Of a stretch of DNA of 64,000 nucleotides, positions 3,190-64,000 are shown one piece after another. Each line of letters begins with the position of its first letter. The first letter of the stretch is position 1. Location of the stretch: NCBI GenBank assembly GCA_022606135.1, contig JABYQN010000014.1:682001-746000 (forward strand). Direction: 5' to 3'. The stretch comes from Fomes fomentarius. Lineage: Eukaryota > Basidiomycota > Agaricomycetes > Polyporales > Polyporaceae. The notes under the pieces were generated by a model. It saw only the letters and a list, made by a program, of their open reading frames with translations, was not told where the DNA came from and searched no databases. A program made the position numbers and the translations under genes.

Positions 3190-5310
3190 CCGCCCTCTGT
3201 TCTACCATTTTATCAGAGCCAAGCCGAGCTCGATCTTATGGCGAAATCAGTCAAGCTCGAGACGTCCCATATTCGCCAAGTTTCATTCTCCGCCCAGGAC
3301 GGTATAACCGTGTCCCGACTGGCTTGTACTCCGCTCTGGCTCGCACAACAATCCCAGCCGTTGTCAAGAGGGTAGGGGATGGCCATCTTTTGGTCGGGAG
3401 CATCGTTGGGCGGCAGAGCCTTCTGTGCTTCTTACACCGCGCGCATGGAGGAAGAGGTCGCCGAGGATGACGTGGAGATGTCAGATGGGCCGGATGCTGT
3501 CGTGTATACTTCCAATCCGATGGACTTGGACGATGACGAAGGTGAGTCGATACAACGTTGCGCTGAGCTCAGTCTTGACATTGGTCAAAGACCTGTACGG
3601 ACCATCGACCGATGTGGACAAAATCGCGACCGACGGTGCATCAAATGGTGTTTTCGACTCCTACGGAGATGCACCTCTCTGTATGTGATGCGCTCCTGGC
3701 TCATGGGGCAATCACAGACATGGCATTAGGTGCGGCACGGAATGGCGTAGGTAGTGCAATTCATTACGAGATACTGGTACTAATCAGGCATGTAGGACCG
3801 ACAAGTTCCTGAACTCGTTGCCGCAACGGGTGCAGGCCACCTGAGCAGCCTCCATTTCTTCCAGGTACGACACTCGCTCTAGTGTCAGCGCGCTATACTG
3901 AGTTTGCGTGCAGAGGGATATGCCTACATGGTCGAAGCGCAAGCTACACGCAATCGGGGGCGGTCGTGGGATGCTGCCCATCCGACCGGCCGTCAAAGTG
4001 AGCGGCGGGGGACGTTCGAGAAGCCCGTGAATGTGAATCCCATCCACACCGTGAACGACTCGTCATCATCAGCACGGACGCAAACACCTCGCCAGGACTG
4101 TCGCGGATCGCGACCCGCTCGTCGCAGTCAAATATTACGATCACGACGCGAATACCGGGTGTGACTCTGGGCGCGGCTCTGCGCATAGTTCAGCTGGCGA
4201 TCTACGAGGCCGTTGTCATCGCGCCTCCGACAGACCCCTTTGCCCAAACCTCGACGCTTCTCGTCAAGTTCGTACAGAGGTACGTGCCTGTTGTTGGAGC
4301 TGCGATGGCAGCATAGGCGTTAGGTGTATGTATTGCATATTGCCACACAAAGACTGATCGTGACACGCCCAGGGCCCCAGTCCGGTGGAATGGATGCCTG
4401 ACGTCCAGCTGGACGCCCATCTGCCCTCGCGCTCCGTCCCATGTTCGCGACCATACTCAAGCATCGTGCTCGATGCCTCGACCTCATTGATCGTAGCGAT
4501 CTTGTCGCTCATGGAGTCGGTTCGCGTCATATGACGAACATAGGAACATCGTCTGGGAGCCTGATAGTAAGCTTATAAACCCGTTCTCTTGTCTATGCGT
4601 CCTTATCGCCCCGTTATCGTCCCTCGCTTCAGGCCGTAACGTCTCTTTCTCATCCACGCTCGAGCTGGTATCACCTGATGGATGCATCACGATGGACGGG
4701 TAGGTCTCTCATTCGCTAGTCTTGTCAGGCGATAGGAGGTGCTGATGTGAAGGACTGATGATATTGTTGTCTGCTGGGTCACCTAGATTCAAGTTCGCAG
4801 CAAGTGAGTTGGCGAACTGCGTCGCCCCTCGAGATGGTGAGCACCAAGTCTGGATTGAAGGACTATATCGCGGTCGGCACCACGACTCAAAAGAGGCGAG
4901 GATCTCGCAGTCAAGGGCTGGATTGCATTGCTATGCATAGAAGACCCAAGGCTGAGCTCGGACATGACATGACCTATCTGCTAGATGTACATCTTCGAGG
5001 TCATCGAGGTCGTTTCGGACGCGAGCACAAACGTGAAGCGTTGGTGGAGGTTCAAGCTGCTCTGTCGGGACGTCCGTGGCACGACTGGCTACCTCGTCTC
5101 GTCTATGAGCCAAAAAGGTGCGTTGGGAACAGTTGTGATTGTACCTTCATACGTCTTTCTCACCGGCATCAGAGCTGGCGTTTGCTATGATGCCGTGATG
5201 TATGACTGTGCAATGCAAGTGGACCCGTACAAGCTCGCCGACAGCCACTTGTCACTTATGTCCTGTGACGAGGAGGGGATTGTCAGGATATATCTTTGTG
5301 GTGTGTCCAC
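3190..5310 (+). pseudogene. CFT1: CFT1 / CPSF160 pseudogene (mRNA cleavage and polyadenylation factor subunit)
   Basis: CFT1 is the large beta-propeller subunit of the nuclear cleavage/polyadenylation factor. Blocks in the expected order, but in shifting frames, match the family: TTIPAVVKRVGDG (about 3342), an acidic loop then DLYGPSTDVDKIATDG (about 3588), ELVAATGAGHLS (about 3810), KRKLHAIGGGRG (about 3935), ISTDANTSPGLSRIATRSS (about 4068), SIVLDASTSLI (about 4460), FASYDEHRNIVWEPD (about 4518), KDYIAVGTTTQK (4858), IFEVIEVVSDASTNVKRWW (4988) and CDEEGIVRIY (about 5262). One frame change is explicit: an extra A near 4894 splits TTQK from the expected GEDLAVKG. The roughly 34-residue stretch around 4190-4275 does not fit CFT1. 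Only part of the roughly 1400-residue protein is present. LPD1 follows on the same strand. A functional copy must exist elsewhere because the gene is essential in yeast. Identification is from memory of the family. Confidence 0.75.
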
Positions 5311-5769
5311 TTCCCATTTTTCCACCATTCCCCGTCCTCTCGTGAGCCTCGGAGTAGCGCGCGGCGAACGGGAAACGGGCCGGAGCCGACTTCAAACATA
5401 CCTTGACTGAAACTTGAAACGCAACTCTAGGCAACACCTGCTTTGCCGCACCACGTTCCATGGCCAGACGGAGGACCGGAGCTCGCTGCTCGTAGTGCAC
5501 AGACCAAAGACATGCTGTGAGATCTTATGGCTTGTATGATTGGTTGACTGATCGACCAAACGTTTCGTTAGCGCGTTTGATGGCATCGTCTGACCGCACT
5601 TCTCATCCGCCGACATGGTCTGGAAAGCGAGGACCAGGATCTTATCCTCAAGTTGTTGAAGAGCATACTATGGGCGGTCGTCTCCCTATGCCCGCGCATC
5701 TACCCACGTTCCAGGAAGAGTGGCAGGCTCGCACAGAACCGCGCTGCAAGCTACTGAGCTAGCCTCGCA
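5311..5769. other. Interval between CFT1 and LPD1 remnants
   Basis: No convincing protein is seen. The short open frames show no conserved motif. The stretch immediately before 5770 would be the former LPD1 promoter and 5' leader; no recognisable element stands out. Confidence 0.35.
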
Positions 5770-6232
<463 letters not shown>

Positions 6233-7831
6233 TTGTTTCCCCGGTCCGTGCCAGCGAGGACACTAAGGCTGCATAGGCGTCTGGAGACCAGGAAGACGGT
6301 CGATCCCAACAGCGCCGAGTGGGATTCCAGTTCATACAGCACCTCTACAACAGCTTCGTTGTCGACCGGCACGGGCTCTGCTTCCTCAGACTCGCGACCA
6401 CGAACATCAACGACTGAGGCGCAGGACTGGCGGATATCCGGGACGAAGCCGAAAGCACTTGCGTACTCAGATCCCTCTCCAGAGCCTTCTCCACGGGCGT
6501 CGTTGTTCGGGGAGTGTGACACCTTTACTGTCTCTGTTACCAGCGAATTGCGGGAGCCGGACGTGAAACCCCAGCGCCGACCATCCATCGTCACCGAGAA
6601 CTTCCTCTACACTGGTCGTACCGACGGCAACCTGCTCTCCCCTAACTCGCCATCGTCAAGCTCGCCGTCGCCAAGTTCGCCAGCGCCGAGATACCCCGGC
6701 TGGCTTTCTGCTGTTGTCGCACCCCTCAAGGGCGTCATCAACGATCAGATCGACCCTCGCAAACTCTACGCTGACCTTCGCGAGATTGCTGAGGGCTCCA
6801 GCGTTAGTGTGTATGCTGCGCGCGTGCTGGCTCCTCAGAAGAAATCCGAGGAGTTTGTTGCGATCAAGAACATTGCGATCATGTCCTCTGGCACGCCCAA
6901 GATCGATGACTTCCATCGGGAGCTTGCGCTCATGGAGGGCGGCATCCCGCATCTACACATCTTGACGATGGGCGCGCTCTATGTCGATCTGGTGGAAGAC
7001 TCCCTCTGGGTACGCATGGAGCTCATGGAGCGTAGCGTTGCAATTATCATTGCGCTGGCGGAGGAGGGCGTCCAACTGGACGAGCAGCTCATGGCGCAGA
7101 TTGCCAAGGACGTGAGTATTCATTGCACGATGGACTGTAAGGTACCGAGCTGACGCAACGCATATAGGTCGTGCAAGCCCTCTACTATCTGCAGTCGAGA
7201 GGCATCGCTCACAGGGACGTTCGTTCGGACAATCTGTTAGTGAATCGAGATGGCATCGTCAAGCTTGCCGACTTCTCGAATGCCGTGCAAGTCACGAAGC
7301 ACAAAGCGACATGCAACGACGCAGTGGGTGTCATCTACTGGCAGGCACCTGAAATGAGAGGGTGAGAACTCAGAGGAAGTTCAACCCTGACATGTCTCAC
7401 TCATCCTTTTTCGTTGCAGCGGCTCATACAACGCCCTCAAAGTCGATGGTGCGACTGTCTGGGAACTCGCGGAAGCAGAGCCGCCATTCAGCGATGTGAC
7501 GGACCCTAGGCAGCTGGGGACAGAACTGCCGCCCCTGAATGAGCCTGATATTTACTCACAATCTTTCCACGATCTCTTAAAGTTATGCTCAAGGTCAAGT
7601 GCTTCACGACCAGATCCTCCCGAACTTCTGACTGTACGTCCGCGTCCATCGGCCTTTTGTCTCCATCCGATGAGCCCGCTGACGAGTGGTTGCATCGTGC
7701 AGACACGGTTCCTTCGCAATCCGAGTGGGCGGCAGGCGACTATCGACCTACTTGCTGACTGTCGAGATATCGAAGAACCCTTGTCCCGGCGACAGAGCAC
7801 CGATTCAACAGGGACGGTGTCGCAGTCATAG
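6233..7831 (+). CDS. STE20/PAK-like protein kinase, probably defective
   Basis: An N-terminal Ser/Pro-rich region of about 160 residues precedes a kinase domain. Introns are 7112-7167, 7362-7419 and 7634-7702, all GT-AG and in frame, and the gene stops at 7829-7831. Visible motifs are a degenerate Gly loop ([13 protein letters not shown]), the beta-3 lysine (VAIKN, codon 6866), a catalytic loop HRDVRSDN at 7210-7233, LADFSNAV where DFG is usual, and an APE-like segment YWQAPEMRG. The family's HRD-x-K lysine is Arg here and DFG is DFS. After KVD the conserved D-V-W-S-L-G element lacks four residues (VWSL) at 7447/7448, in frame. Activity therefore looks unlikely. The upstream start is uncertain because the first codon in the open frame is TTG and an inversion breakpoint lies just before. 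The kinase ends 320 bases from the converging LPD1 3' part. Confidence 0.8.
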
Positions 7832-8150
7832 CATGTGTTCCGTTCAATCCATACCCGCATCTGGTTAGTTATCACCCATTTGCATTGGTATGGACATATT
7901 CGTTGTGTTTAGAGTAGTGCAATATGCTTTGCTTTGAACTCCTTGGGCCATACGTGTCATCTACGCGCAGTACTCATTTTCCTCCACATCCGCATGCGGG
8001 CATGCCAGTCGACGAACACTAGTTGTGAGCGAACGGGCTTGGGTCATGCCGCACATGAACGATCTTGTCTAAACCACAACGTAGGGACCAATTATATGCA
8101 GTGTATATATTCGGGCGGCTACGGTAGAAGACAGCATGAGAGCCGAAGCC
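7832..8150. other. Tail-to-tail spacer between kinase and LPD1 3' part
   Basis: A 319-base spacer separates two converging gene ends. It should hold both 3' untranslated regions. No strong polyadenylation motif or other element was recognised. Confidence 0.4.
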
Positions 8151-9600
8151 TTAGACGAAGTGGATGGGCTTGTCGTAGGCAGACATTGCCGCCTCCTTAA
8201 AGGCCTCGCTGAGCGTGGGCTTGAAACGCAAGACGTCAGTGACCAGCAAGTAAAGCAGACAGGATGGAGAAACGTACATGAGCATGACATGTCCGGGCAA
8301 TGTCTTCCGCGCTCGCGCCGTACTCGACAGTCAAAACCGCCTCCTAGATCATCTCGCCGGCGTTGGGGCCGATGATGTGCACACCAAGCACACGGTCCGT
8401 CTCAGCCTCAGTGAGGAACTTGACGGTACCCTCAGAGTCGAGGTTCGTCTTCGCTCGCGAGTTGGCGGCGAAGGGGAACTTGCCAACCTTGTACTTGACG
8501 CCCTCTGCCTTCAATTCCTGTTCGGTCTTGCCGACCCACGCGACCTCGGGGTTCGTGTAGACGATGGCGGGGATCGCGTGGTAGTTGATGTGCCCGTGAC
8601 CCTTGAAGACGTACTCGACCGCAGCGATGCCCTCCTCCTCGGCCTTGTGCGTGAGCATGGGCCCGAAGGTGACGTCACCGATGCACTTGACGCCCTTGAC
8701 GGAGGTGTTGAACTGGTCGTCGATCACAATGCGCCCTTTGTTATCGAGATTTAGACCCTGGGTGTATGGCCGGCGGCCGACAGAGACGTGGACGACGTTA
8801 GACTCGAGCTACAAAGTGGTGTGATGATTAGTGTGTGCGCTAGTGCTGAGTAGTGAAGAGGAACGGGGAACATATGATTTCCTCCTGGCCGCCCTTCGCG
8901 CTCTCGGTCTTGATGTAGACCTTGCCGTCCTTCTTCTCAGCAGACACGACTTTGGTGTTGAGCTTGAACTTGAGGCCCGAGCAAGCGCTGGAACTGCTTA
9001 CTGCAGCGGCCGTCAGGACACGGCGAGACATGGGAAAGATGGGAGCAAGGACATACGCGATCTCATCGTCAATACCAGCGCCACCAATACTGCCCAAGAA
9101 CTCGACGACGGAGACGGCTCCACACACTACCCAGCTCGAGGCCGATAACACCACCACCGATGACGATCAGCTTCTCCAGGACCTCCTTCAGAGAGAGTGC
9201 GCCTGTTGAAGAAACAATTTGCTCCTCATCGATCTCGATGCCGCCTCCGGGAAAGGGCGCGACCTCGGAGCCGGTCGCGATGTTGATGTTTTTGGCCTCA
9301 ACCTCAGTCTCGCCGCCGTCGTTGAGCTTGACTCGGAAACTCTGATGGGGGACACGAAGGACGCAACACCCTTGATATAGTCAACCTTGTTCTGCTTGAG
9401 AAGGGTCTCAATACCCTTGGTCAGGCCAGTGACTGCGTCCTCCTTCGCCTTGAGCATCACGAGGAGGTTCAGTGACACATCGCCGACTATGCATGAGTTC
9501 TAATTAAGGACTGCAGGACAGGGTATATAGAAAGGATAGGCACACCATCAATTCCTCGCCGTTTGAGGTCGTGCTGAGTCTGGTGGTAGATATGCGAGTG
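8151..9600 (-). pseudogene. LPD1: Dihydrolipoamide dehydrogenase, 3' part (inverted)
   Basis: Read on the minus strand, this resumes LPD1 almost exactly where 6118 stops: SHIYHQTQHDLKRRGID, then [37 protein letters not shown], the NAD-binding [92 protein letters not shown], and the C-terminal HPTLSEA-like end KPTLSEAFKEAAMSAYDK up to PIHFV and TAA at 8151-8153. Lesions: about two extra bases near 9332-9338 (frame change before VKLNDGG), about 14 bases missing at 9110/9111 (GAEVT lost), and an in-frame TAG at 8344-8346 in place of the Ser after GEMI. Together with 5770-6118 it makes a nearly full-length but dead E3 gene. Confidence 0.88.
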
Positions 9601-10340
9601 GCGCCTGTTGGGGGGGGGGGGGGGGCGCGGCGGATGGATGCTTCACGAGAACGCCTTATATTGCTGGTAGTCTTGCGTCGTTAAGTCCTGTTTCGCTCGG
9701 TCCTGATTGAGACTGAAAGATACGGTGCATGCCCTCTGTGCATGCCACGATTACCACGGCAACGGAGAGCCACATGGCCGTCCCCGGGCTACCTCAACTG
9801 CGGCTACTAATTACTCGTTCGACAGAGTGCTGTTCGAGGACAACGTGGGCAATTATTTTCCTGGGAGAACGTCCGCATGGATCCCGCGCTAGCGGCTCAG
9901 GAACCCGTTGCTCCAACAGCGGTCCGGCTACCGCGACATAGACATCGGTCCGACTACCGCGACGGAGCGTCGAGAACGCAGGGGAAGGTCGTGCAAGGGC
10001 TGGAAGCTCGAGTGGCAGTGGGTCCAGGTGGGCCCGAGGCTCGTCTTACACTGTAGAGCGAAGATGAAAGGCAAGGACAGACTAAGTAGTGTACTATTCG
10101 TGAGGTTGATCGTCCATGTACAGCTACTTTGAATATCCAATGTCTCGTCAACCTCAGGTTCGCTACTAGGTGGTTACATATGGAGTCGAGTAAAGATGGT
10201 TTGAGAAACGCTCCGCTGCGTTCTAATGGGCCTGTCACTGTGGCGGAGAGACCATTGTAAGCGCCGACATCCTAACACGCGTTGTGCTCTCCCATCCCCT
10301 CCCAGCCCCCTTCAGCTTCCCTTACCTTTCAACACCTCAC
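9601..10340. other. Inversion junction J2 with 16-base G run, then gene-poor DNA
   Basis: LPD1 homology ends at 9600. Ten bases later a run of 16 G occupies 9610-9625. The rest to 10340 has only short open frames with no recognisable motif. If the inversion is real, this DNA once lay upstream of the kinase. Confidence 0.5.
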
Positions 10341-12530: not shown

Positions 12531-13630
12531 TCTTTGTCTGGGGAGCAAGTCACGGATTTGTACAAGTCAGTGCGTACCAATTCGGAAGCTCATCGCGCGT
12601 GCGAGAAGCCGATGACGCTCCAGCGGTAACCCCTTGTTGGAGGATCCTCGATGTGCTGAATAACATGCGATCATCCCTCCTTTGTCTCGCATTCGTCCAG
12701 CAATCCACTTTGACTCATTCAGGCGCGCCGCACTCCCCGAGGACAAGATGCTAGGGGAGTTGGGGGTAGGTGATTTGTTGATACTCTACCTTCGCTATTC
12801 TGTGCCTAGTGGTTCCTCTCGTGGGACATCCGGTAAAGTCTTCTCGTACCCATTCAATTCGCTGTGAGCTCATTGGCCACGGCTGCAGGTTTTCTGTCGG
12901 ACAAAGCGGACTCGAATGATGACATTGCTAAACGATTGCTGCAAAGGAGAGGTATACATGATAATATCCTACCTTGAGATGACAGGAATTCGCATATCAT
13001 ACATTGTAGGACTAAACGAAGCGACCGACGCCGGGACCAGGACGAAGAGCTTTTTCGATGAGGACCTCAGCTGCGACGAGTTAGGTGGCAACGGTCAACC
13101 ACAGGCTAGTTCCTCGAGTCACAGCTTCAAAGGAAAACGCGCGGCTGGCCGGAGCGTCCGTGTAGAGGAAGGGCTAGATCATGGTAAGCATACGCACCCC
13201 CTTGATCCTTGATGAAGGTATCTTCGCTTAGCATTCCAGCTCATGCGACGATCATCAGCCGCTGGCTGGTCACTCCGGTCCCGGTATCATGAGGAGCAAA
13301 CAATCAACTACACAGGGCGTCGGTGCGGAGGAACAGCTGAAACATCGTGGTAAGTGCACACTCGACGTTTCTATATCAATATGGCAGTTGCAGACTCCGG
13401 ACGTGACTCGTACCCCACAGTCTCTCCAACGAAGATCCCCTCCACATCGTCACCTGGTTCTGCAGTGTCATCCCTTCACCAGTCATCGCCCCGCTATCGA
13501 ACCTTGCTGAGTTAAATCCTGCGCTGGAGAACAGCAAGCAAGATGCTGCTGCCGATTAGCCGGATCGTTCTGAAGAGGAACATCGAGCCGACGCAATGGC
13601 ATGGAAGGAAGCGCCCACAGTCAAAGGTCG
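12531..13630. other. Gene-poor interval before Tnp2 relic I
   Basis: Several short plus-strand frames (for example 12916-13212, acidic and Ser-rich) have no recognisable domain. They may include decayed N-terminal parts of the transposon relic that follows, but no motif supports that directly. Confidence 0.3.
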
Positions 13631-15545
13631 TGAAGCAGTGTTCAAAGAGAGCAGCATCCGTTGGTCTGCTCTGTTAGCGCTGAAGTACTGGAATCCGATT
13701 CGTTTCGCTGTCATCGACTCCATAATCATTACCTCGGACTGCTGAAGCATCACTGCCGTGTGCTGTGGGGTATGAGCGCAGACGCCCAGGATGCCGACTA
13801 CAACGACTTTCTTCCTCAGCCACCCCAGGAAGAAATCGCGACAGCAATAATCACCTCTACTCAAGTGTTCCTGCTAGGCTCGAGAAGTGCGCGCGCCCAG
13901 TTCTAAGATACCTGGCGTCCATGCTGAGTATCGCACACAAGAAGACAACGAAACCGGCCCTTATACAAGCCTTGCTAGCATATGTACAAGCTATTAACTA
14001 CTATCTCAATTGGTCATACTAATGATGCGCGGCAGCGTCATAAGCAAGGCGTTAAGGTTGAGGACGATAAGGAGAAGATCAGGACTACTCAAGCCGGCGG
14101 GTCGATCGATCAGGTCTGAGGCAAAGCTCCCAGTGGCAGTGAAAGCGCTTCGCGCAACCGTAACGTGGTCGCCGCGGCCGAGAAGGCCTTCCTGGCTGGC
14201 AATGCTGAAACTACACTCGCCAACAATCTCAACCTCGGAGTTTTCCAGGCGCTGTGCAAGTGCTACAATCTCTCATGAGGGCATCAAGAAGCAATTGATC
14301 AAGAGGTTGATTGAAGAGGTACGCTTATTGTGCTAACCGCGTCAATGAGTGAGTTTCTGACATCAATCTACTAGCGAAGCAAGTAACCCCCGGGACTCTG
14401 AAACCAATCGTCCCTGCTGACGCACAAACCGCATCTGCCAACCTAACTCCTGTGCCTAAATATCGGGCTCGTGTAGTGGGGACCAGTCCGCTAGTAAGCT
14501 TGCCTCCAACCCCGACTATCGCAGGTACTGACACTTGAATTCACGAGGTTGAGACTGCTGGAGTAACCGATGACAGCCCCGGCGCACAGCAGCACCATCT
14601 TAGGTAGACAGACCCTCAAGTACATCCACGATCGGATGCCACACACGCAGCTACCCTCTTGGGTGAATCCTGTACCAGCCGACGTTGGCAAGAAGGCGAG
14701 AGGAAAGCTCAGCGCTGACCAGTGGCATATGTTTTGCGTCATCTACCTTCCGATCATACTTATCCGTTGTGGCATAAGAAAGGAGATCGACAGTAGGAGA
14801 TCCTCGACAACTATATGGATCTCGTCACGGAGGTCATTCATTGTCGGAAGCTTGCTGGAGATGTCGCAGGAAACCATCGAACTGTACAAGGTGGTATCAT
14901 TGCAGTATCTACAGAGGATTTGGAAGCTATACCCGGATTCCGACATCACCCCCAATCAGCACAACTCCATTCACATCGTCTTCTTCCTCTGCCTCTATGG
15001 GCCGTTGTATTCGATCTGGACATTCTTTTCCCAGAGAATGAACTACCTCCTACAGGGAATGAACACGAATATGAAGGTCGGTGTGTCATATGGCCACTCG
15101 TGCCTGTCTTCGCACTCACGATTATGCAGGAGAACTTGAGTCTACGTACATGAAGGACAATAGCCGTTCTGCAAACCTTCGTCTTCTGCTAGAAGACGAG
15201 AGCATACACGAAAGTGCCCAGGAGCTGGCCGAAGCTGTGCAGGAAGCTCGATCTCTGCATTCCGTGTTTGTAGCTATCTGATCGCCGAACATAGCATCAA
15301 GAGTTGGGGAGATCTGGCGTCACAATGAGGAATGCATGTACATCAGCAAATTGGCTAGAGCCATGATGGTATTGAAGAAGGCACCCGTAGCCTCGCCGAC
15401 ATCTTTGTGACGCAAGTTCCTGTCCAACAGATGACAAGGTGATGAGTGCCTACCACCTGCGGGGCACAACAACGCGCAAACGTGGACCTAAGACCGGTTC
15501 CTCACCTCAATTCAAGGTCTACGGGTGTATCATTGACTCGGAGGG
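13631..15545 (+). mobile_element. Tnp2-type (CACTA-like) transposase relic I
   Basis: Frames that shift several times carry the C-terminal half of an Agaricomycete Tnp2 transposase. WSALLALKYWNPIRFAVID and NHYLGLLKHHCRVLWGMSAD (about 13655-13780) match the region after the catalytic core. KTTKPALIQALLAYV (about 13945) resembles a SAP-like module. LSADQWHMFCVIYLPIILIR (about 14706), ILDNYMDLVTEVIH (about 14795), YLQRIWKLYPDSDITPNQHN (about 14910), and YGPLYSIWTFFSQRMNYLLQ (about 14995) are followed, after an intron, by GELEST (about 15127). The N-terminal catalytic part is absent, and multiple frame changes make it inactive. It is a diverged relative of the fuller copy at 47-52 kb. No terminal inverted repeat or target duplication was identified. 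Confidence 0.75.
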
Positions 15546-16020
15546 GCGATAAAGTTTGGGAGACATAGAGTATCTGTCAGCCAAGAGCGATTCCGGAGGC
15601 TCAGTCTCGAGCAGCAACATATTGTCGCTGGGAGATGGCAGAGCAAGGAGCGAAGCCGGAAAGCCCACTGACGGAGAAGGATACATGCTTGTTTGCGTTC
15701 TCCACGGAGGGTATGGGGATAGAGATGGAGATGTTGCAGGGAGGCCAATCACTGCCTAGGTGGTATGACGATTAAAAACTAGCCCTTTCAATTATTACCT
15801 GAAACGATACGGTGATTTCCGATGCCAGCAACTCTTACGGACAGGCCCCGCGTGTTGGGTCGCACGAGCCTGCAGTCATCGCGCGAAGGGTGTACTGATT
15901 GTAAATGGCGGCGTGAATCATAGTGGTACACTGCGGCATGGGTAGGAAGAGGTAGACAGGGTCCGGGGTATCGTATGGGGTACAGTCAAGTAGTGCGAAC
16001 ACAATGTACTATAGTCATAC
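15546..16020. other. Gene-poor interval
   Basis: Ser-rich minus-strand and plus-strand frames overlap with no conserved motif. It probably contains the end of the Tnp2 relic and the 3' side of the LRR-like gene. Confidence 0.35.
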
Positions 16021-17104
16021 CTAGAAAATGGTGTCTGGAGGATTTGCGGAGTTACGAGAGATGTTGCGCCAGCTCCCAGAGGTCTTCGACCAACAAGTTG
16101 TGATTCCTCCGTTTGGCTCTAGGCAGCGATACCAAACACGAAGGAACGTGAGCGTGGGATGCTCGTGAATGCCTGTGGCCCGCGAAGATGTATTTGTCCA
16201 CTTTAGCAACGTCTTCTGTTCACTAGCGATCTTGTACGGGGCGCGTGTGATGGAGGATGCTGTGCGAAGAGCGAAGTCCTCGAGAAAATCAAGCTTCTTC
16301 AGGACATGCGCCCAGGCACGAGCGTCATTCCAAGCTCTGCGAGCATGGAGCATCCTGCGCTGCGGATGCGAGTTCAATCCACAGCAAGAGAATTATAATA
16401 GGATCGGACAAACGCACGTATTGGCGCGGTTTTTCCAATAACTTGAGCTTTTGGACGCGAGGCGCCGCCAGTGCCACGTTCTGGAGTATGTCATAGTCGT
16501 CGGGATAGAAATCCAAAGTCAAGGCGAATAGGTGAAGTAGCGGTGGGGAGATAGACCTCAGCGTGGGAGCGATATAAGGCGTAGAATTCCCGTGGGTCTC
16601 GACCGTCAAACGTAGGAGGCCAGGATTGATGTTGTCAGACACACACCCAATTGGGCACTCCAAGGCAGTGACGTGGTGAAGGTCAAGTGCGCAAAGAGGA
16701 CATGAACCCGCCGCCGGTACGTGGGCGCAAGGCCCAAGGACAAGGTCCGTGACAGTGGAATGCGAGGCCAAGAACAAGTCAAGGTGGCCATGAGGGAGGT
16801 TCGCCTTTAAAAACTGGAGATGTTGCAGTTGCAAGCCGACGAGCAGGTTATCCGGTACGTCGGAAGGTAGCGACAGTATGAGGTCGGTCACACCGGAGCT
16901 GATGGAGAGGCACAGACGGAATAATTCGATAGAGAACGGGTTTTCGAGAGCGATGACAAGCTCTGTGGTGGCGAGAGCAACGCTAAGATCCTCGAAACAA
17001 TCTTCAGCATATTCGAGCAGATCGGGAGGCGAAGATATCCGCACAAAAGACTGGAAGAATGGCTCAGTTGGACCCGAAATTCCGGCAGAAAGGACCACGT
17101 ACAC
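16021..17104 (-). CDS. F-box/LRR-type protein of the mushroom expanded family (start unresolved)
   Basis: A 260-codon minus-strand exon is followed by an in-frame 58-base intron at 16360-16417 (donor GTGCGT, acceptor CGCAG) and a final exon ending near 16021. The protein has repeated leucine-rich strands, such as VTDLILSLPSD, LQLQHLQFLKANLP, DLVLGPCAHVP, VTALECPIGC, PGLLRLTVETHG and LLHLFALTLDFYP, and after the intron ARAWAHVLKKLDFLEDFALR. This layout fits the many mushroom genes pairing an N-terminal F-box with an LRR-like solenoid. I do not see the F-box itself; the first codon here is GTG, so an upstream exon is likely. Such proteins usually act as substrate adaptors of SCF ubiquitin ligases, but that is inference here. 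Confidence 0.5.
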
Positions 17105-17756
17105 ATGCAGGGAAGTACTTCATTATGCCAGACGTTCTTCGGAAAGGCTACAATATCGGAGTGATAGACAGGGTGGGGGAGTAGAGATGGAATTGGGTAG
17201 TGAAGTGAAGTAGCGGCGACGGATGGCGCACCTGAAAATTAACAAAGGGCATTGATCGAACGTCTGAATCCTTCATAAAGATAGTTGTGCATGACCTCAT
17301 AGCGGCGAAACGAGCTCTAGGGGGTCGTAGAACAAGCCCTCACAAGCACTATAACGGCTAGGTGGACATGTTCTTTCGTAGGTGCTCTTGAGATACATGG
17401 TGTAGGCTATAATGATAGAGCAGTGAACCTGAGTAGAATCACTAAAAGCGGGCATAGTAGGAGCGATCACCATTACCGTGTCTCGGGTCATCAGTAGGCC
17501 TGAGGAGGAGCAGGCATGGTGCTAGCAGCCATGAAGGTAAGAGCGACTCGGAAGTTTAAGCGCTATTACATAACATCATACACGCACTACCAGCTGAGGC
17601 AATGCCAAATCGGGAGGGGAAATTCGGAACAGGCGTTTTATTCGACAGCATCAAGGACTCAGTATAGAGTATTTGCGTACAAAGAGAGCAAGACAACATC
17701 GATCCATGGTCATGTACTATCATAAGCGGTAGGGGCGCGGTCAGGCGGCAACGCCG
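17105..17756. other. Gene-poor interval
   Basis: Only short open frames on both strands with no recognised domain. It should hold the promoter side of the LRR-type gene. Confidence 0.35.
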
Positions 17757-18300
17757 TCAACGTTCAACGTTCGCGCCTGGGTTCGTGGGGAGGTGGCGGA
17801 GTGCGTCGTCGATGAGGCGTTCGACGCGTGCCTCATAGCCGGTAGAATCCAGATGAGCCTCGGAAACCATGGACATAACAGCCCAGAAGTCGTCGTCGTG
17901 GTCAAACTGAAGGAGGTAATACGTGCGGTTACTCTCACTGGTGATTGTCATTGTGAGGATTGCCTGATGGTTACGATAATTATCCACCTGAGGTAGGCAA
18001 TATGTAGAGAAGGTGGCTGACCTGACAAAATTTGTAGGTGAACATCTTATCAGGGATCATCACCTTCAATAGGACGTTGGGAGCGTCGCAGGCGCCGTGG
18101 CCATTGATTTCACACACCATCACGGCATCTGCGAACACATACGTTCAGACAAGCCATACGCCGAGTATGCGGTACTTACGAAGGTTGACGCCGATTTGGG
18201 TGACGAGGAGTTGTACAGGGACGGCCTGTCCAGATACTGGCGTTCCATCGACGATTACCATGTAGGTTACGCCGGCTGAGTTGAAAGCAATTTCCGCTTC
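17757..18300 (-). CDS. Small unknown family protein (member 1 of 3)
   Basis: Three minus-strand exons read coherently. The first codes TYMVIVDGTPVSGQAVPVQL and LVTQIGVNLR to a donor at 18179. The second (18128-18022) codes VMVCEINGHGACDAP, NVLLKVMIPDKMFTYKFCQ. The third (17987-17757) codes NHQAILTMTITSESNRTYYL, FDHDDDFWAVMSMV and DDALRHLPTNP to a TGA stop. The second intron, 17988-18021, is only 34 bases. The alternating hydrophobic pattern suggests a beta-rich fold. Two convergent genes at 35.5-36.4 kb share the exon layout and motif spacing (a CDV/CEI turn, then a D/E-rich strand), so this looks like a small multigene family. I cannot name it. The true start is not fixed. Confidence 0.45.
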
Positions 18301-18354
18301 ACTGGTACTAGAGTGAGAGGCAGACTTGTGGAGGGAGCATGGAACGACACTCAC

Positions 18355-18838
18355 TCGAAAAGAGAGCCGAGTTGGTGGGAGGCCATGGCTATGGTTGTGC
18401 GTGAAGTTAGGTCTGTCGCCCACCTGCGCAGGCGGGCGCGGGGCAGCTCCACGGCCCTCGCCTGTAGCTCCACGTCCGCGACCCCGCCCCCGTCCACAGT
18501 CAACACCGCGGCCGCGGCCTCTGTCAGAAGAGGTGGAGGTGGAAGTAGAGGCTACGGGTTCTTCCTTGGATATGCACGTGAGCGAGAGGTTGAGAACCCA
18601 GTCAGAGACCGACACGCACCCTCCTAGGCTCCCTGTACAGATGTGAGGATGCGCTGGATGGGTTTGTGAGTGGTGCTTACTCCTTGGCGAGGGTGGGCAC
18701 GAACTTGAGCTTCTGCGTGCCGAGGCACGTAACATCGTGCTGTTTCTTTGCGAGGCTGGCTATCGCTTTTCCTTGGGTGCCAGAGCCCGCGGCTGAAGAC
18801 GCGGGAGTACCACTGCCCGATGGATGTTGTTCAAACAT
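18355..18838 (-). pseudogene. RNA polymerase III subunit RPC53/RPC4-like N-terminal fragment
   Basis: The ATG at 18838-18836 opens a Ser/Gly/Thr-rich stretch followed by KQHDVTCLGTQKLKFVPTLA, which fits the KLKF-x-P element near the N-terminus of RPC4 (RPC53), a subunit of RNA polymerase III involved in termination. A GTAAGC donor follows at 18680. A second block, starting SKEEPVASTSTSTSSDRGRG and continuing with Gly-Arg repeats and AAPRPPAQ, fits the RGR-rich region that follows in basidiomycete RPC4. The frame across the intron could not be reconciled, and the C-terminal RPC4 domain is absent: the sequence runs directly into the unrelated family gene at 18300. The call rests on low-complexity sequence plus one motif and could be wrong. 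Confidence 0.4.
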
Positions 18839-19089
18839 TGGGGACGGCGTGGACCATGACGGCGGCCGAGATTCGATGTGAGGAAACGAAAGTGACAAGG
18901 TACGCACTGAGAGCGTGTTCGCCAAGCGCGCGTGCAGTTCGAAGGGATCTCGATTGGAGATAAGGAAGGAAAACTTTTGGATCACACATAGATCATCTTA
19001 TCCGCCACCCGCCATGTCGCACAGGCCTCGGATATGCCTCGCTTCCCGTCCCCTCTCTCGCCACTCTCGAACACAACTGACTGCAGACA

Positions 19090-20194
19090 TGGCCGCCCAC
19101 ACCGAGCCCGAGCACTTCCGCGTCACATACCAAGATGTCCACAACCTCATCCGCGAGAGCGCCGGAAAGATTGAGGCGTTCAAACCCGACATCATCATTG
19201 CCATTGGTCTGTCTTTGTCCATGACTTGCCACATTCATCGCATACTCACCGTTTCGCTTTTGTAGCACGCGCAGGTGGAGGGCAAGTCTATAGCACACTG
19301 ATTGCACCTGTGTTCGAAACTTGACCTTTCCGATGCAGAGGCGTTTTCCCTGCCTGCGTTATGGTGAATGCGGAAAGGAAGGGGAACATCCCCATTTACG
19401 CCATTGGCCTCTCTCTCTATGAGTCACTCCCTGGCATGACTGCTGAGCAGATCGGTGCCGAGGTCATCCGTATACAGTGGTTGTGAGTCTAAGCGGGCTT
19501 CTCCATCACATGCATGTCGATTACCGCAAGTTATAGAGGTCCAGAATCTGGCAAGATTCTGCTTTGAAGGCGTGCGCTTATTGTGGTAAGCTGCGACCGG
19601 TGACCTCTCATCTTCGCCCATGGCCATCCGCCTGACATATCACTGCTTAGGACGAAGTTGATGACTCTCGCAAGACGTGACAGTGCGCGACAGGATCCTC
19701 TGCTCTTCACACGAGCACCATACTGAGTGAAATACCAGCTATGCGGTGAGCGAGCTCCAGAGCGATGTCGAGCGGGGTCGAGCGGGAACTAGCCTTGCTC
19801 CCCGAGGCCGAGAGGGAGGCAAAGTGCACCCAGTTCGCGATCTTCGTCGTGCATAACAAAATCAAACCCAACTTAGCGAACCTTCCCGCGGACCATACTG
19901 TGAGTACACCTGCTTGGTGGACCGGACACGTATGCCTGAGACCCCCGATGTAGATACTTCGCCAGAGAGGAGATAGAGGGTGTCTGGTGAGAACAATTGA
20001 TCTATGCTATCCTAGCTGTACCACTCATGAGACGGTTCTTTGGTGACAGGCTGGACTATCCTCGGGAAGCAGCGTGAGTTACTCAATGTCGTTTCGCACG
20101 GGAGCTCGCGTTGAATCGCATTCTCTGCAGGGACATCGAAGAGCACGACCGCCTCGCGGAGGAGAAGGCGAAGAGAAATGCCGCTGCAGCGTAG
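19090..20194 (+). pseudogene. XPT1: Xanthine/hypoxanthine phosphoribosyltransferase pseudogene
   Basis: Purine-salvage phosphoribosyltransferase of the XPT1/HPT1 type. Blocks in order: MAAHTEPEHFRVTYQDVHNL (start 19090), SAGKIEAFKPDIIIAIG, then after an intron FPACVMVNAERKGNIPIYAI, SLYESLPGMTAEQIGAEVIR, GPESGKILL, DEVDDSRKT (the conserved PRPP-binding acidic pair), YAVSELQSDVER, ELALLPEAEREAKCTQFAIF, VVHNKIKPNLANLPAD, YFAREEIEGVWLDYPREA and IEEHDRLAEEKAKRN to TAG at 20192-20194. Lesions: the glycines after IAIG and the RTFLKK region are lost; TGA at 19565-19567 replaces the Gly of LLGRR; and an exact 10-base tandem duplication at 19767-19786 shifts frame inside SDVEREL. Most splice sites survive. 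The gene is nearly full length but dead. Confidence 0.88.
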
Positions 20195-20357
20195 AATGCG
20201 TAGCGCAGGGCGCCTCGTTTGCGCGACGCGATTGGATGAGAGCTGAGAGGCCCGGATGCTAGGATGCAAAGAAAGATGCAAGTAAAGCAGGTAAGTCGCG
20301 GTTATTGTCCCTCTATATCATTGTCCCTCATGGCCGTGACCATGTCCAGCAACCCCG

Positions 20358-20728
20358 ATGTCAGCTCTTCTTAACAGCGTGGCAAACTTGGCGAAGAAGC
20401 GTCCCTCTCTTTCTGAACTGGTAGTACAAACATTGATGAACCGGACGCCCGTGAAGCTAGAGGGCCTCCGTCATACGCAGTCTCGAGAAGAGCGGAATAC
20501 TGCTGATGCATATACCTCGGTCAGTCCGTCCCGTGGCGGGATACGTTCTGTTCTCATAGCCCTTGAACACATTCGCATGACACCTCAAGCTCAGCCTTCC
20601 CACCAACAAATTCAGGCCGCCCTTGCCAACCAAGCAACTCGGATCGAGGAAGCAGCTGCCGCAGAAAAGCCTCGAAAGGCTGCTGCCGCTGAAACCACTC
20701 GGAAACGTCAGACGTCGGCCACACCTAT
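20358..20728 (+). pseudogene. PTA1: Symplekin/PTA1-like fragment
   Basis: The open frame begins LLNSVANLAKKRPSLSELV, a helix of the symplekin/Pta1 N-terminal repeat region, and continues VLIALEHIRM, QQIQAALANQATRIEEAAA and KPRKAAAAETTRKR, as in basidiomycete homologs where this region runs into an Ala/Lys-rich linker. Symplekin/Pta1 is a scaffold of the same cleavage and polyadenylation machinery as CFT1. The segment between LEGL and RSVLIAL contains extra sequence, possibly a retained intron or insertion. Only about 120 residues are present and the frame then runs into unrelated basic sequence. Assignment is from memory of the family and is moderate. Confidence 0.45.
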
Positions 20729-20979
20729 CGTAGATGCGCAGTCCGTAACCCTTTTCTCCTGTCGCTTTTCATGCCCCGACTCACCCTCACCCGCAAGCAG
20801 AGATGGTCGTCTCCAATGTCGGTCCGATCGTCCTCTCGCTCCCGCACGCACCAAACTCAGGTTCGTCCACGACGGCAAACGTCGCGTAGCAAGTCCGCAT
20901 GTTCTCCGTCGACGCGCCTGCTCGTCGGCCCGCTCCTGGACGCGCTTGCGCCCGTCGCTTCGCGCCTTGACGGCTGCGT

Positions 20980-27165: not shown

Positions 27166-27429
27166 TATAACGCGTCTCGTCCGTCCACGAGTCGCACATC
27201 GCTGGACGTCTCGGGAAGGAAGTGCCAGACTTCGAGAGGAGAGTTGCTCGCGGGGAGAACGAGGAGAGGAGGAAGCGTGCCCAACAGAAGGCATCACTTG
27301 AACGTAGCCAGCGCCCTGGCCGACGTACAGGTCCAATAGGCTGCGCTAATTCGTCTGTGCTGCAGAGCGCCCGGTGAAGATCTACAAAGATGAATAGTGT
27401 CAGCCTCTACAGTCAATTGATTTTACGTA

Positions 27430-28600: not shown

Positions 28601-28604
28601 TTGT

Positions 28605-47152: not shown

Positions 47153-50100
47153 ATGAGCCAGTGGCCACCGCCGTTCGTAGAAGGCCTTCCCCGAGAATAT
47201 CTTTGCAGGTGTTGGGAGTGTTACTCCTTTTCCACCTACATGCCGCAGCTGGGTATATATATTGAAGGCCAGCTTTTGGGCAAGAACGAATATGACGAGC
47301 ATCAGCGGAGAGATGAGAGCCGCTCCCGCTTGCCTCAAGCTCCGCTGAGAACCGCTACCTCAAGTGACACCATAGGCCCGGTCTCTCCTGGGGAGGACAC
47401 TTCAATACCCGCGCCTTCAAGTTCATGCTACAACCAGTCCCGTCGCGATCGCCATCCTAAGTTGGACTATGAAAAGGTCCTCGACGAGATGGAACATGAC
47501 CTTGAACAGCGCGAAGAGAGTGCCGAAGAATCATGCATGGGCATTGTCTTCGAAAATCCACCCACCCCATCATTGTCGAATTTCCCTTCCAACTCGTCTT
47601 CGGAAGGGAATGCACAAAACATCCCAGCAGATCTCCCTCCCGAAGTCAACACAGGTCATTACGCACTTGTTGACAACGATCCTGCCAATCTCATTATACT
47701 GGGGTACGAGCGGTGGATCTTGGACTCTATGCTACAATTAGAGGCGCTATGGACCCACGCTTCTCCGGCTACACGGCTTCGAATGTCTCTCATTAGAGAA
47801 GAACTGGAGAACGCTTTTGTTCGCATGGAAGAATGGAGGAAAGTAGAGTGGATTCGACAGCGCGAGAGAAACTGTCCTCAGATCGCACATCGAGACAGCT
47901 GTCTGCCAGGGGAGGTCCGCGTGATTGATACTGGTGAGCAAGTTGTTTGCGTCTATGGCTCATAGTAGGCTCACCATAAGTTCTATCATGACAGAAGATT
48001 ACCTGGAACCTCCTTGGCGGAAACTCAATCCTCTCAACCTTCTTCTCGATGTTGTTGCTGCTATCTTGCTCCTTCTTTGTGGCGTGGGGATAAGGAAGTG
48101 CAACTGGGTCCTCGATTCCCTAAGACTCGCATTCAACTTGGGATTCAAAGTTGCCACGAACACAGATACCCTCCAAGGAACTCCTCACCTCATTGTGGAT
48201 GACATATGCTGCGACGTCAGAACGGTTCTAGAGCGCTTGAAACTTGCGCCTGTCGCTCAACCATATGTGTTCTGCCCAGCCTGTTTCAAGCTGTACCCCA
48301 TCGACGACTACCCCGACCGCTGTACACACAGACGGGCGAAGAAAAGCCACCCATGTGACCAGAAACTACGACTCGAACGCATCATCGCAGGCAAAAAGAG
48401 AACTTTCTCAGCGACTCGCTATGTCCACAATGACTTTGACCATTGGTGGGGTCGAACCCTCTGCCGTCCGGGCATTGAGGCGATCTTGAAGCAGAATGTC
48501 CTAGACAGCAACCACGAGGACCTAGGCGTGAACCGGGATATCTGGGATAGTCGAGCGATCAGGGACCTCAAGGGGCCGGATGATAAGCCATTCATAGACC
48601 CTACTATCAACGAGGGACGACATATCTTTGGCATCTGCATGGATGGGTTCAACGCCGAGGGTAAAGGTGGCGCTTATTCGCCACTGACTGCCTGCTATCT
48701 TGTATGCTACGACCTCCCACCCGCACTCCGTTACAAGACCGAGAACATGTTTCTATTCGGCGTACTCCCAGGACACCCACATATGGAGGAGATAAACCAC
48801 CTATTAGAACTAGTGGCATGTTGCTTCCGTCGCAGCTACCTCCATGGAGTGTGGTATACCAATACCCCTCTGCATTCTGATGGCATCCTCTCTCGTTGTG
48901 CCATCGTCCCTATAGTCGCCGATCTTCTAGCAGCTCGTCAGATGTCTGGCACTGCGCCGCACAACCATATACATTTCTGCAACTTCTGCATGCAAGAACT
49001 CTGGCAGATTGAAGACCTGGACTATTGGAAATGGCGTTCCAGGACCTGCAAAGAACATCGCAAAATTGCGGAGCGTTGGCGCGATGCAGAGACAGAGGAT
49101 GAAAAGAAGACAATATGGAAGGAGTATGGGATACGCTGGACTCCTCTCCTATCCCTTCCATACTGGGATCCCTCGAGCTTCATAGCCCTGGACACCATGC
49201 ATCTTTTCTACCTGGGGTGTTTCCACAGACATTGTGAGCTGGTATGGGGGATGAGCGGCAAGCAAAATGATGGGCTGGATGGAATTGCTTATGATCCATC
49301 AAACAAACCCCCAGTCCCAAGGAGTATACAGACGCTGCCAAGACACTTCGGTGTGGAACCCCACAAGATATTCACGATCTACGATACGAGGTACTCAAGA
49401 GCCTCTGTCGAGATCACGACCTGCGTTTCAGGGGCAAGAAGTCGGTGCTGATCAAGGCACTCCTACAACTGGTGAGAGCTTTCTGCTGTGTATGCAGGTC
49501 ACGCGTTATGACTGTGCTCTCACTCAATTTCCTTATAGAGGATAGATCGTGGCTGGTTTGATACCAATCAGAACCTCATCCTGCCAGCCGATCCTACATC
49601 CACTGTAACTTCAGCTCAGGCCCAATTTACCATATCCCCGCCCGGATCTGAAGCACACGTCACCCAACCTTCATCCTCAGTCGTGGTGACTGAGACAGAA
49701 GTGTGGTTGACTTCTCCGTCGTCGTCGAGACCCCTACCTGCAACCGCAGCTGAAGTCCAACTCAACCCTTCTTCGTCACTCCCAAGGCCCTCGCAGACCA
49801 TCCCACTCACCAACAGAGGTGGCTCAGGCTTCATACGATCTCCACCGAAGCCACCACCCCCTCTTTTCAACGACACTTCAGAAGTAACAGAAGCTATCCA
49901 GGTCCTGTTCACTGGTGCTAAAAGCCGCTTAGACAAAGTTCACGTATCCGAGCTCAAGGTGCTCTGTAGCAGGTTTCTGAAACCCAGCGCTGACTTCATG
50001 GAGCGATCTAGAAAGCCTGAAATACTGGAGGCGCTGCACAAATATGTATGTCTAGCACATCATGATCCCTAGAGGTGGCTACTAGCTATTGATAATGATG

Positions 50101-51857
50101 GAAACTTCACACAGCGTCGGGAACAAGGAATTGTCGATGAGAACAATGCCATTATAAAGAACCCAGCATTGTCTGCAGCAGCCACACTCGCAGAAGTTGC
50201 AGCAGCTAAGGACGTTTTGAAGCATGGATCTATGAATCAACTCAAGAGATTCCCTACCGAGATTTTGGTTGCGCTATCCACAGACACAGAGGTACACGCT
50301 ACGACAGACGCACCTAGAACCAAGAAGGATGCGATGGCTAAACTCAAGGAATTTGTGCGTACCTTGAATCGTGTGATGTACACGCCGTACGGACTTACCT
50401 TTGCAAAATGAACAGCGCATAGATCATGGAATTGCCAACGCCGATGGATCTTTACAAAGACCAAGAAATAAACGGACTCGCGTGCTTGGCCGACAGCGAC
50501 TACGACTGATCTGGGAAGACATGGAAAATACCACCTTCCCAAGCTGGTTCTCTCCTGCCCCATCACGTGTTTCAGAGTCAGCTTCAACGTCCGGTATGAA
50601 GGCCGACCAGTGGCGCTCTTTCTGCACCGTGCATCTACCCATATCAATGATCTACCTCTGGGGATGCGAGCCAGAAAGTTCAAGGGAGTTTCTGATACTC
50701 GACAACTTCATGGATCTTGTCAGCGCCATAAAGCTAGGCTCCATGCGTCTACAGACAACTACACGACGGGCCTTGTTTCGCCAATACATGCACAAGTACT
50801 TGAAAGGACTGCTGGAGCTTTATCCGGGTACCACTATCACTCCTGGGCAGCACCTCTGTCTACATTGGCCAGACGTTGCCGAGAACATAGGACCCGCTCC
50901 AGCGACTCGTTCCTTTGCCTTCGAAAACACAAATCTGGTGTTACAGCAGATTGAAACAAACCACAAACCTGGTGCGTAGGCCGATGTTCTGAGACTGTCT
51001 TCACCTTAGTCACGACAAATGAATAGGTGATCTTTCCGGAACACTTCTCTCGCGATTCTCCATGCAGCAAATGTTGCAGTACATGATCAGTCAGCAGAAC
51101 CTTCCTTCCGAGTTATGGGGCATCATCTCTCCATTTATGGACACATTTAGGTCAAGGGCTATGGGGACGTTATTTGAAGATACGACGGGACATTCAAGTG
51201 TACCAGCTTCGAGGAAATCTGACGATTCTCGTCAGTCATTGACACAGCTGTCAGAGGAAGAGTTTGCACTGCTGCAAACCTGGCTCCGGAACCGCCAGGC
51301 CCCTCACGATATCATCCCGTTTGTTCATAGTGAACACGAAGTCACGAAGGGCGGTCTCCGATACACGACGTATGATACCGTACCGAGGGATAGCAATATT
51401 ATATTCCCAACGGAAGACCGCCATGACTGGAGGGCCGGTCGTGTTGTGCGCATCTTCCGCCTTGGCCCATCGCATAGGGAGACCGATACCGTCTTCCTAG
51501 TGGTCGACTGTTATGAAGCGCTCAACAACGCCCATGCAGAGCGAGACCCCTGTCGTCACTTCCCAGTTGCCGGAGGCCGTTTATTCTACAACAAATACGA
51601 AGCTAATCCCGTAATCATCACCCTCACGGATATCATCAGTCACTTTGCGAGTCGAGAAAGAGCCCTCCCCCAGCCTAAAGACGTCGAACCTAACTCCCCT
51701 GAGTCGGAGGAGACGATCGAGTGTATCCACATCGTACCACTGGACAAGGTAAGCGTGTCAAAAGAGTATACCTTGATAAAAAGTTTGGCCACGCTGACGT
51801 GCGTGTGACTCAGTGGTAGAGGCATATCTATGTACCTGAATGGGATATTGTTAAGGT
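47153..51857 (+). mobile_element. Tnp2-type (CACTA-like) transposase gene, nearly complete
   Basis: Exon 1 (47153-47933) has CRCWECYSFSTYMPQLGIYI, the N-terminal Cys cluster. Intron 47934-47994 leads to the core: FCPACFKLYPIDDYPDRCTH, DHWWGRTLCRPGIEAIL, the acidic strand FGICMDGFNAEGKGGAYSPL, LPPALRYKTENMFLFGVLPG, VADLLAARQMSGTAPHNHIH and ALDTMHLFYLG, as in the Transposase_21/Tnp2 family. One base is missing near 49318; the next frame reads KEYTDAAKTLRCGTPQDIHD then three SAP-like modules (about 49390, 49940, 50225). Then DQWRSFCTVHLPISMIYLWG, YLKGLLELYPGTTITPGQHL, and the C-terminal exon 51062-51748 (ELWGIISPFMDTF, HDWRAGRVVRIFRLGPS). After intron 51749-51813 a TAG at 51817 interrupts YVPEWDIV. 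So it is damaged, but far less than the host genes around it. No terminal repeats were fixed. Confidence 0.9.
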
Positions 51858-63136: not shown

Positions 63137-64000
63137 TCACCTCCGCGTGGCGAGTAGCTGTAACCGCGCTGTCAACTGGAATTTTGACGTCTCGCGCCGA
63201 AGCCGTCTACAGATACCCAGGTTAGCGAAGGAGGTGACCACAGATCAAGAGACACGTACCGGCTGGCACGTTCTTTCTCTAGCTCCCTCCGCTCGACTTC
63301 TTCCGCGGTTAGCACCTCGAACCTCGTGCGGAGCTCTTCCGCCTCCGCCCAGTCTCGCCACACACTCCTCAACGGTTTCGGACCCCGTCCATCCTTTGGT
63401 GCACGACCCCATCCAAGCCCAAGGCCGGTCTTGTCCTTCAGCAAGCTTAGTCCACTCTTGTCCCGTGGGCGGTCAGCAGCAGCTTCGTCGGTGACATCAC
63501 GCGTCTCTCGCCAATCACACCTCACTCGATAGCGTCCCGCTTGTGCTTCACTATCTCTTCGTGGATTGCGTGAGAGATCGGCCTCGCCCGTGAGCCCGAG
63601 CTCACAACAGAGCTTCGTGGCAAACTCCTCAGGAGTGAGAGGCGAGAGAAGATCCCACTCAATGTGATCCAATAATTGGTGAGTCGCAATTTGCACGTCA
63701 ATTTGGTGTATTGTGGTTAAGAAGAGATACTTTCGCAGAATCATATGAAGGGCTTACACTTAAAATCACTCGACACTCGTTCTCCTCCCAAGGATTCTCG
63801 TCCTCTGGCTCAGGGATGTCTGCGTCCGCTCCCAGGCACATCAGCGCTACACCCTCAAGTTCCTCCAGCTGAGCACGGAGTTGGTTGGCGACAGTTTCCG
63901 AGTACGGTTGGAGAGTAAGGTCCAGATCCCTACAGAAGGTTCGGGCGAAGACCCGGGGTAATAAGTGCTTCGTTGAGATTCCACACAAGCAATCTCGTAT
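63137..64000 (-). pseudogene. SNF5/SFH1 chromatin-remodelling subunit pseudogene (5' end outside window)
   Basis: Core subunit of SWI/SNF or RSC remodellers. From the window edge: HLLPRVFARTFCRDLDLTLQ, PYSETVANQLRAQLEELEGV, NECRVILS, a GTAAGC donor at 63757, then IDVQIATHQLLDHIEWDLLS with PLTPEEFATKLCCELGLTGE, HAIHEEIVKHKRDAIE, LRSVWRDWAEAEELRTRFEV, LTAEEVERRELEKERASR, and after an intron RRLRRETSKFQ to TGA at 63137-63139. Lesions: no AG acceptor stands where the first intron should end (CACCAAATTGACG, where CAG is expected); several bases are lost after GLTGEA, shifting frame; and TGA at 63522-63524 replaces the Trp of IEWGVI. Both SNF5 repeats were recognisable before decay. Confidence 0.87.

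Follow-up and report, generated by a model that had tools for sequence, protein, structure and literature searches.

The window analysed here is a 64,000-nucleotide stretch of the polypore Fomes fomentarius (GenBank assembly GCA_022606135.1), positions 682,001 to 746,000 of contig JABYQN010000014.1 (G000:C14:682001-746000). This contig, C14, has 973,794 bases, and the genome comprises 40.94 Mb in 24 contigs, written C1, C2 and so on. Comparison of the window with the rest of the genome strongly supports a mosaic of fragments from genes that have open copies on other contigs. An earlier note on the same DNA, made from its letters alone, had named several broken genes here, and its names are taken up below. 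The fragments and copied blocks, in window coordinates, are as follows.

3202..5510, plus strand: fragment of C9:1577173-1581565 (named CFT1 in the earlier note); six colinear pieces at 77-94%; internal deletions have shortened 4.4 kb to 2.3 kb
5509..5681, minus strand: fragment of C7:1907877-1908119, from the own-genome DNA search
5681..9937, plus strand: fragment of C9:2104912-2105238, in pieces 5681-5763 and 9731-9937 around a C12 insert; 17 bp of C9 lost at the split
5760..9675, no strand assigned: fragment of C12:1221171-1225426, middle inverted in place; kinase-like gene (Pfam Pkinase) and frame-broken LPD1
13559..15248, minus strand: fragment of C10:947853-949542, 91%
15247..18429, minus strand: block common to C14:638154-640396, 94-99%; 935 bp (16528-17462) missing from the other copy
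18427..20739, minus strand: fragments of C3:1011766-1013696 and C3:1018232-1018701, the second with an N-terminal piece of symplekin/PTA1, whose coding strand is plus
20738..21727, minus strand: fragment of C1:2214380-2215463, 76%
24930..27150, plus strand: fragment of C4:702220-705258, a PMC1-type calcium ATPase coding on the minus strand; 825-bp internal deletion
25678..33188, plus strand: 7.5-kb block with an inverted copy, 100% (rounded), at C14:607047-614543
27209..27869, minus strand: fragment of C19:108384-109118, 77%; DUF5695 piece
28620..29237, plus strand: fragment of C8:711983-712674, from the own-genome DNA search
29237..33188, minus relative to C6, coding on the window plus strand: KHA1 fragment of C6:2857859-2859641, split by the ADAM insert
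29871..32142, minus relative to C10, coding on the window plus strand: ADAM-type protease fragment of C10:739008-741418, within the KHA1 fragment
33290..37899, plus strand: blocks duplicated within C14, 100% and 97%
37965..38570, plus strand: fragment of C3:1014677-1015286; RNA polymerase III RPC4 match below cut-off
38579..39008, minus strand: fragment of C1:102692-102975, split by a C8:451429-451564 insert at 38644-38777
42985..45266, plus strand: fragment of C2:3428428-3431208; second, inverted copy of part of this locus at 24266-24916
63137..64000, minus strand: SNF5/SFH1 fragment; the adjoining C14 flank matches C4:1201887-1203541 (91%)

Composition and joins of the mosaic

The own-genome DNA searches used three queries (3190-20000, 20001-40000 and 40001-60000), which gave 20, 50 and 46 rows. 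Of these 116 rows, 61 were counted; the 55 omitted are paralog or second-best matches, dispersed-repeat copies and some within-C14 matches. Removal of 5 within-C14 and 3 repeat-type rows leaves 53 segments of 38-3485 bp, which trace to 23 loci on 11 other contigs (C1, C2, C3, C4, C6, C7, C8, C9, C10, C12 and C19) at 70-97% identity. Other contigs of the same genome cover 43.5% of 3190-60000. This coverage is 60% of 3190-20000, 58% of 20001-40000 and 16% of 40001-60000, so the patchwork is clear as far as about 45 kb and becomes sparse after that. The pieces are DNA-level copies, with introns kept and aligned between window and donors, and copies from several chromosomes stand side by side, as in a mosaic block of interchromosomal segmental duplications.

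The segments commonly abut. With two C14 rows near 639 kb included, neighboring segments that differ in source or orientation make 33 joins, 17 of which fall within 12 bp. When the unmatched bases were split randomly among the joins in 20,000 trials, the mean number within 12 bp was 0.5 and the maximum was 5. At 14 of the tight joins the two alignments share 0-7 bp, and at the other 3 they stand 2-8 bp apart; these values are approximate because they are read off alignments of diverged DNA.

Nesting, inversion and copying within C14

Several fragments lie inside others. The ADAM fragment from C10 sits within the KHA1 fragment from C6, with 18 bp of C6 lost (by alignment) and at most about 3 unmatched bases at the joins. 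No target-site duplication was found at this insert, the sole one read at base level at both ends. C12:1221171-1225426 lies inside C9:2104912-2105238 with 17 bp missing, 55 unmatched bases on one side and its middle inverted in place, and C8:451429-451564 splits C1:102692-102975 at two neighboring bases, bordered by 13 and 2 unmatched bases. In the flank at 746-756 kb of C14, C15:500400-503865 occurs within C1:3799140-3800197, where 1 bp is lost and 86 and 63 unmatched bases stand beside the insert. At 590-593 kb of C14 there are C11 pieces, of which one is inverted and its two neighbors are not.

Copying has also occurred within the contig. The composite block at 25678-33188, which holds C4, C19, C3, C8, C6 and C10 pieces together, is re-copied elsewhere on C14 at 100% and inverted, a secondary duplication. 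The stretch 33290-35957 has a 100% copy at C14:592689-595355, and 35957-37899 has 97% copies at two C14 places, 588-590 and 795-797 kb. The copies near 590 and 793 kb hold 3,046 bp extra at position 35957. This difference was considered as a recent capture and rejected; because the 3,046 bp are present in both other copies and contain old C11 pieces, loss in the window copy is more likely. At the protein level, a 100% copy of the PMC1 piece is present at C14:780690-782003. The alignments demonstrate DNA-level copies, direct joins, nesting, in-place inversion of two pieces and within-contig copying.

Two further repeats lie among these segments. A 105-bp direct repeat (29728-29832 and 33189-33293, 99%) flanks the ADAM-carrying stretch, and both of its copies match the KHA1 donor. 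Window 24026-24916 and 44540-45571 form an inverted pair, with parts 87-95% alike, and both are related to C2:3428-3431 kb: one donor locus with two copies.

The structure of the joins bears on transposon-borne capture, in which Helitrons or Pack-TIR elements would have taken up host fragments and inserted them here. Gene-fragment capture by Helitrons is reported for Pleurotus ostreatus (PMC4289320), and the window contains a Tnp2-like gene. However, the Tnp2 match is below the Pfam cut-off, the C10-in-C6 insert abuts its target with no target-site duplication and no room for element ends, and 17 joins between different sources abut within 12 bp. Capture by transposons is the least probable of the alternatives considered.

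Donor genes and decay of the window copies

The earlier note had reasoned that intact copies of the broken genes must lie elsewhere. The four donors that were read (LPD1, ADAM, KHA1 and PMC1) agree with this as far as the fetched sequence goes: all are on other contigs, have predicted introns and show no internal stop. The open lengths are 506 aa (LPD1, C12), 543 aa (ADAM, C10), 556 aa (KHA1, C6) and 1228 aa (PMC1, C4), the fetched sequence truncating LPD1, ADAM and PMC1 at the start and KHA1 at both ends. Per aligned site, the window copies differ from these donors by 0.060, 0.050 and 0.128 for codon positions 1, 2 and 3, and by 0.127 for introns. Of 39 exon indels, 24 are frame-shifting.

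The KHA1 pair was also compared with outgroup relatives. The nearest named full-length relatives, among 120 listed, are from Lentinus tigrinus and Polyporus arcularius, both polypores and both at 76%. A site was taken as conserved when kept in at least 16 of 18 outgroup relatives, and low-identity (out-of-frame) stretches of the window copy were excluded. At 241 such sites the window copy alone has changed at 28, the donor alone at 0, and both differ at 6. By this one-sided pattern, the window copy of KHA1 is evolving without constraint.

Two other explanations for the broken frames and substitutions were set aside. Small introns misread as frameshifts do not account for the frames, as LPD1, PMC1 and others are still incomplete under a gene model trained on the window and 200 kb of the same genome, and the donor comparison settled the matter. 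This model gives introns with a median of 59 bp, a donor of GTR-G-T type and a YAG acceptor. A frameshift count from codon usage only was uninformative (3 in the window and 0-1 per block in five other blocks at a lenient penalty, 0 everywhere at a stricter one). Mutation resembling repeat-induced point mutation (RIP) was not supported, with C>T at 0.051 and G>A at 0.059 per base versus 0.058 and 0.067 in reverse, although change at CpG sites is about 1.5 times as frequent as at C or G elsewhere.

Extent of the domain on C14

Blocks shared within the contig span about 588 to 797 kb of C14, so the patchwork domain is probably at least 210 kb long; the searches inside it covered 590-593, 685-742 and 746-756 kb. 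In the flank at 746-756 kb, 6468 of 10000 bases match other contigs (11 of 27 rows counted). The predicted coding fraction is 0.29 in the window and 0.31 in both 20-kb flanks, and is 0.44 for a C1 block, 0.42 for a C4 block and 0.61 for a C6 block.

Three 6-kb samples elsewhere on C14 are not patchwork. At 880-886 kb there is only the self match, plus 114 bp elsewhere on C14. At 300-306 kb the matches are to paralogs (68-73%, about 440 bp), to a C10 piece of 189 bp at 84% and to a few pieces below 80 bp. At 450-456 kb there is a local gene family, with copies at 74-85% on C14 and relatives on C4 and C11; within 450001-456000 this takes the form of an array, with several of the 74-85% copies located within C14:408-493 kb. 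A 6-kb control from C6 matches itself only. Predicted complete genes carry BNR_4 and Cyt-b5 domains at 880 kb and a rhodanese domain at 300 kb, and an F-box gene at 880 kb is truncated by the sample edge.

These samples bear on whether C14 is, or contains, B (supernumerary) chromosome DNA, a possibility raised in the earlier note. Such DNA would be a dispensable chromosome assembled from pieces of A chromosomes, like the Bs of rye, or a chromosome of this kind fused into a core contig or wrongly joined to it. In its favor, rye Bs are reported to be mosaics of A fragments whose open copies remain on the A chromosomes (PMC6406668), the pattern seen here. In addition, no TTAGGG arrays were found in the first or last 3 kb of C14, so that linkage to a core chromosome is not proven. 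On the other side are the non-patchwork samples at 300, 450 and 880 kb and the predicted complete genes at 300 and 880 kb. Judged on these three samples of a contig without telomere repeats, the mosaic composition is not chromosome-wide on C14. A whole B chromosome is therefore not supported, and B chromosome DNA in any form is considered unlikely here. A subtelomeric duplication was also raised in the earlier note; the window is not subtelomeric on the contig, though the contig ends may not be chromosome ends.

Artefacts were considered as well. In a chimeric assembly the pieces would be about 100% identical to their sources, whereas 70-97% identity and one-sided missense decay were observed, and this candidate was rejected. 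Read error, which the earlier note had also argued against, was rejected too, given the many substitutions relative to donors, the one-sided missense changes at conserved sites and the 100% copy of the 7.5-kb block.

Proposed origin of the patchwork

The window probably belongs to an interstitial patchwork domain, built step by step by end-joining captures from other chromosomes, then reshuffled and now decaying, in a contig that is otherwise ordinary where sampled. Double-strand breaks in the domain would have been repaired by end joining, with distant fragments captured or copied one after another. Pieces without function would then lose their frames and undergo deletions, and would persist as the domain tolerates insertions. 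The donor genes would stay the working copies. Candidate reasons for the location of the domain are a centromere, a non-recombining block or embedded B-type DNA.

Several points weigh against this explanation. More than half of 3190-60000 has no match outside C14 in the counted rows, the join overlaps are approximate, and the controls are few, with a single 6-kb stretch of C6 representing other contigs. No other-contig segment longer than 100 bp in the window is above 94% identity, and no recent capture was seen; the capture may be an old burst, or the donors may be a diverged haplotype. The KHA1 comparison also has a background: in leave-one-out counts, eight outgroups deviate at 3-15 of 242-249 conserved sites. 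P0043, a 395-aa protein that shares 96% identity with the C6 KHA1 donor across 339 aa and is taken to come from the same species or a close sister, deviates at 16 of 144; its start resembles intron read-through. Lastly, the ratio of codon positions 1+2 to neutral sites is 0.55 for PMC1 and 0.46 for KHA1, but 0.29 for ADAM and 0.27 for LPD1 are below the approximately 0.5 expected for a copy that has been neutral ever since its split from the donor. Ratios this far below 0.5 suggest that for ADAM and LPD1 some of the divergence took place in working genes, ahead of the capture. ADAM is nested within KHA1 and hence the younger of the two, which agrees with its lower ratio.

Some of the same observations would fit a domain that came from a diverged lineage by hybridization or introgression, at species-level distance from the outset. 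The 94% ceiling and the low LPD1 and ADAM ratios, which suggest functional divergence before decay, are in its favor, and the window sides with P0043, the close relative, rather than with the local donor at 7 of 292 KHA1 sites. However, the window agrees with the donor against P0043 at 16 of 292 sites, neutral-site divergence is unequal among the four donors (0.101-0.156, P=0.0097), and high within-species diversity would be expected to give the same signal. Introgression is judged very improbable.

A broader form of the end-joining explanation is more tentative, and its chances are put somewhat below even. It holds that the region may be a sink domain of some hundreds of kb with repeated end-joining uptake of interchromosomal gene fragments, a fungal counterpart of primate mosaic duplicons, possibly linked to a centromere or a non-recombining block.

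Gene identities and other features

The earlier note had listed ten conserved genes as broken, truncated, inverted or fused copies. Such copies are present, and six of the ten names are upheld. The LPD1 piece lies in two frames, with Pyr_redox_2 at 9362-9099 and Pyr_redox_2 plus Pyr_redox_dim at 8811-8272, and has its donor on C12. The ADAM protease piece, with a donor on C10, has Reprolysin and Disintegrin Pfam matches split over two frames. The KHA1 piece has its donor on C6, and its relatives carry the name K(+)/H(+) antiporter 1. For the PMC1 piece, with a donor on C4, the best PDB matches are plasma-membrane calcium ATPases. The symplekin/PTA1 piece matches Pfam SYMPK_PTA1_N below the cut-off in one scan and above it in another, and the SNF5 piece is named by its Pfam match. 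The other four names are not confirmed. CFT1 found no support in Pfam or PDB searches, although its C9 donor locus was found, and no Pfam match was obtained for XPT1, VPS74 or the GDP-fucose-synthase-like gene among the selected reading frames of the window that were scanned.

Further Pfam matches in the window are DUF5695 at 27419-27709 (above the cut-off in one frame), RPC4 at 38011-38133 (below it) and a single WD40 repeat. For the gene that the earlier note called FKBP, an NPL domain at 22670-22885 fits. The long open exons claimed for a Tnp2 gene are present in a predicted gene, and its identity is less firm, as PF02992 matches one exon at E=8e-4, the below-cut-off match mentioned above. 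Neither Rfam at its gathering threshold nor a tRNA scan found a match in the window. The remaining features are as follows.

47240..51819, plus strand: predicted gene for a Tnp2-like transposase, with eight exons and an open length of 1386 aa
54055-56141: predicted 527-aa gene in the sparsely matched part, with no Pfam match over its largest open frame
59159-59282: dispersed repeat of 124 bp that recurs on many contigs, in at least 26 further copies at 81-95%; it may be a short non-autonomous transposon

Comparison with known mosaics

Mosaic B chromosomes are a known kind of structure, and rye and other Bs are described as mosaics of A-chromosome DNA (PMC6406668). As in rye-type Bs, the window has many genic fragments with A paralogs, and pseudogenes; unlike in rye, the patchwork is one part of a contig. 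Among basidiomycetes, accessory chromosomes of Tremella fuciformis are also extra or gene-poor DNA. The report on them gives core homologs for 14.2% of AC01 genes and places the source outside the species (PMC13066641). Those chromosomes are mostly unrelated to the core, whereas 43.5% of 3190-60000 matches other contigs here.

Mosaic duplicons are likewise known (PMC3747353, PMC2566985). Primate pericentromeric and other segmental duplications resemble the window in having interchromosomal copies of gene pieces in a mosaic, followed by local duplication. The primate blocks are larger and mostly more than 90% identical, in a 3-Gb genome. The segments here, in contrast, are 38 bp to 3.5 kb and 70-97% identical, in a 41-Mb fungus.

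The proposed mechanism resembles the templated insertions of yeast, in which distant loci are joined into double-strand breaks by end joining. The yeast work describes end-joined fragments of distant loci and complex inserts with two inverted pieces of the same locus (PMC11724301), features that the window would share. The yeast inserts are experimental, arise at one induced break and are raised in repair mutants, whereas the window would hold kilobase pieces gathered over evolutionary time.

Significance

Compact fungal genomes are usually regarded as poor in pseudogenes and interchromosomal duplications. A literature search of titles and abstract openings, with most subscription papers outside it, found no comparable mushroom domain among the matches listed. 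For annotation, the region is a warning, as it can give false second copies of essential genes. If the sink-domain reading is true, duplicon hubs and fused gene fragments can arise in fungal genomes without transposon capture. With its joins, nesting order and donors all legible, a bounded domain of this kind would make it possible to measure how mosaic DNA arises through break repair, and whether B chromosomes and duplicon hubs use a common route.

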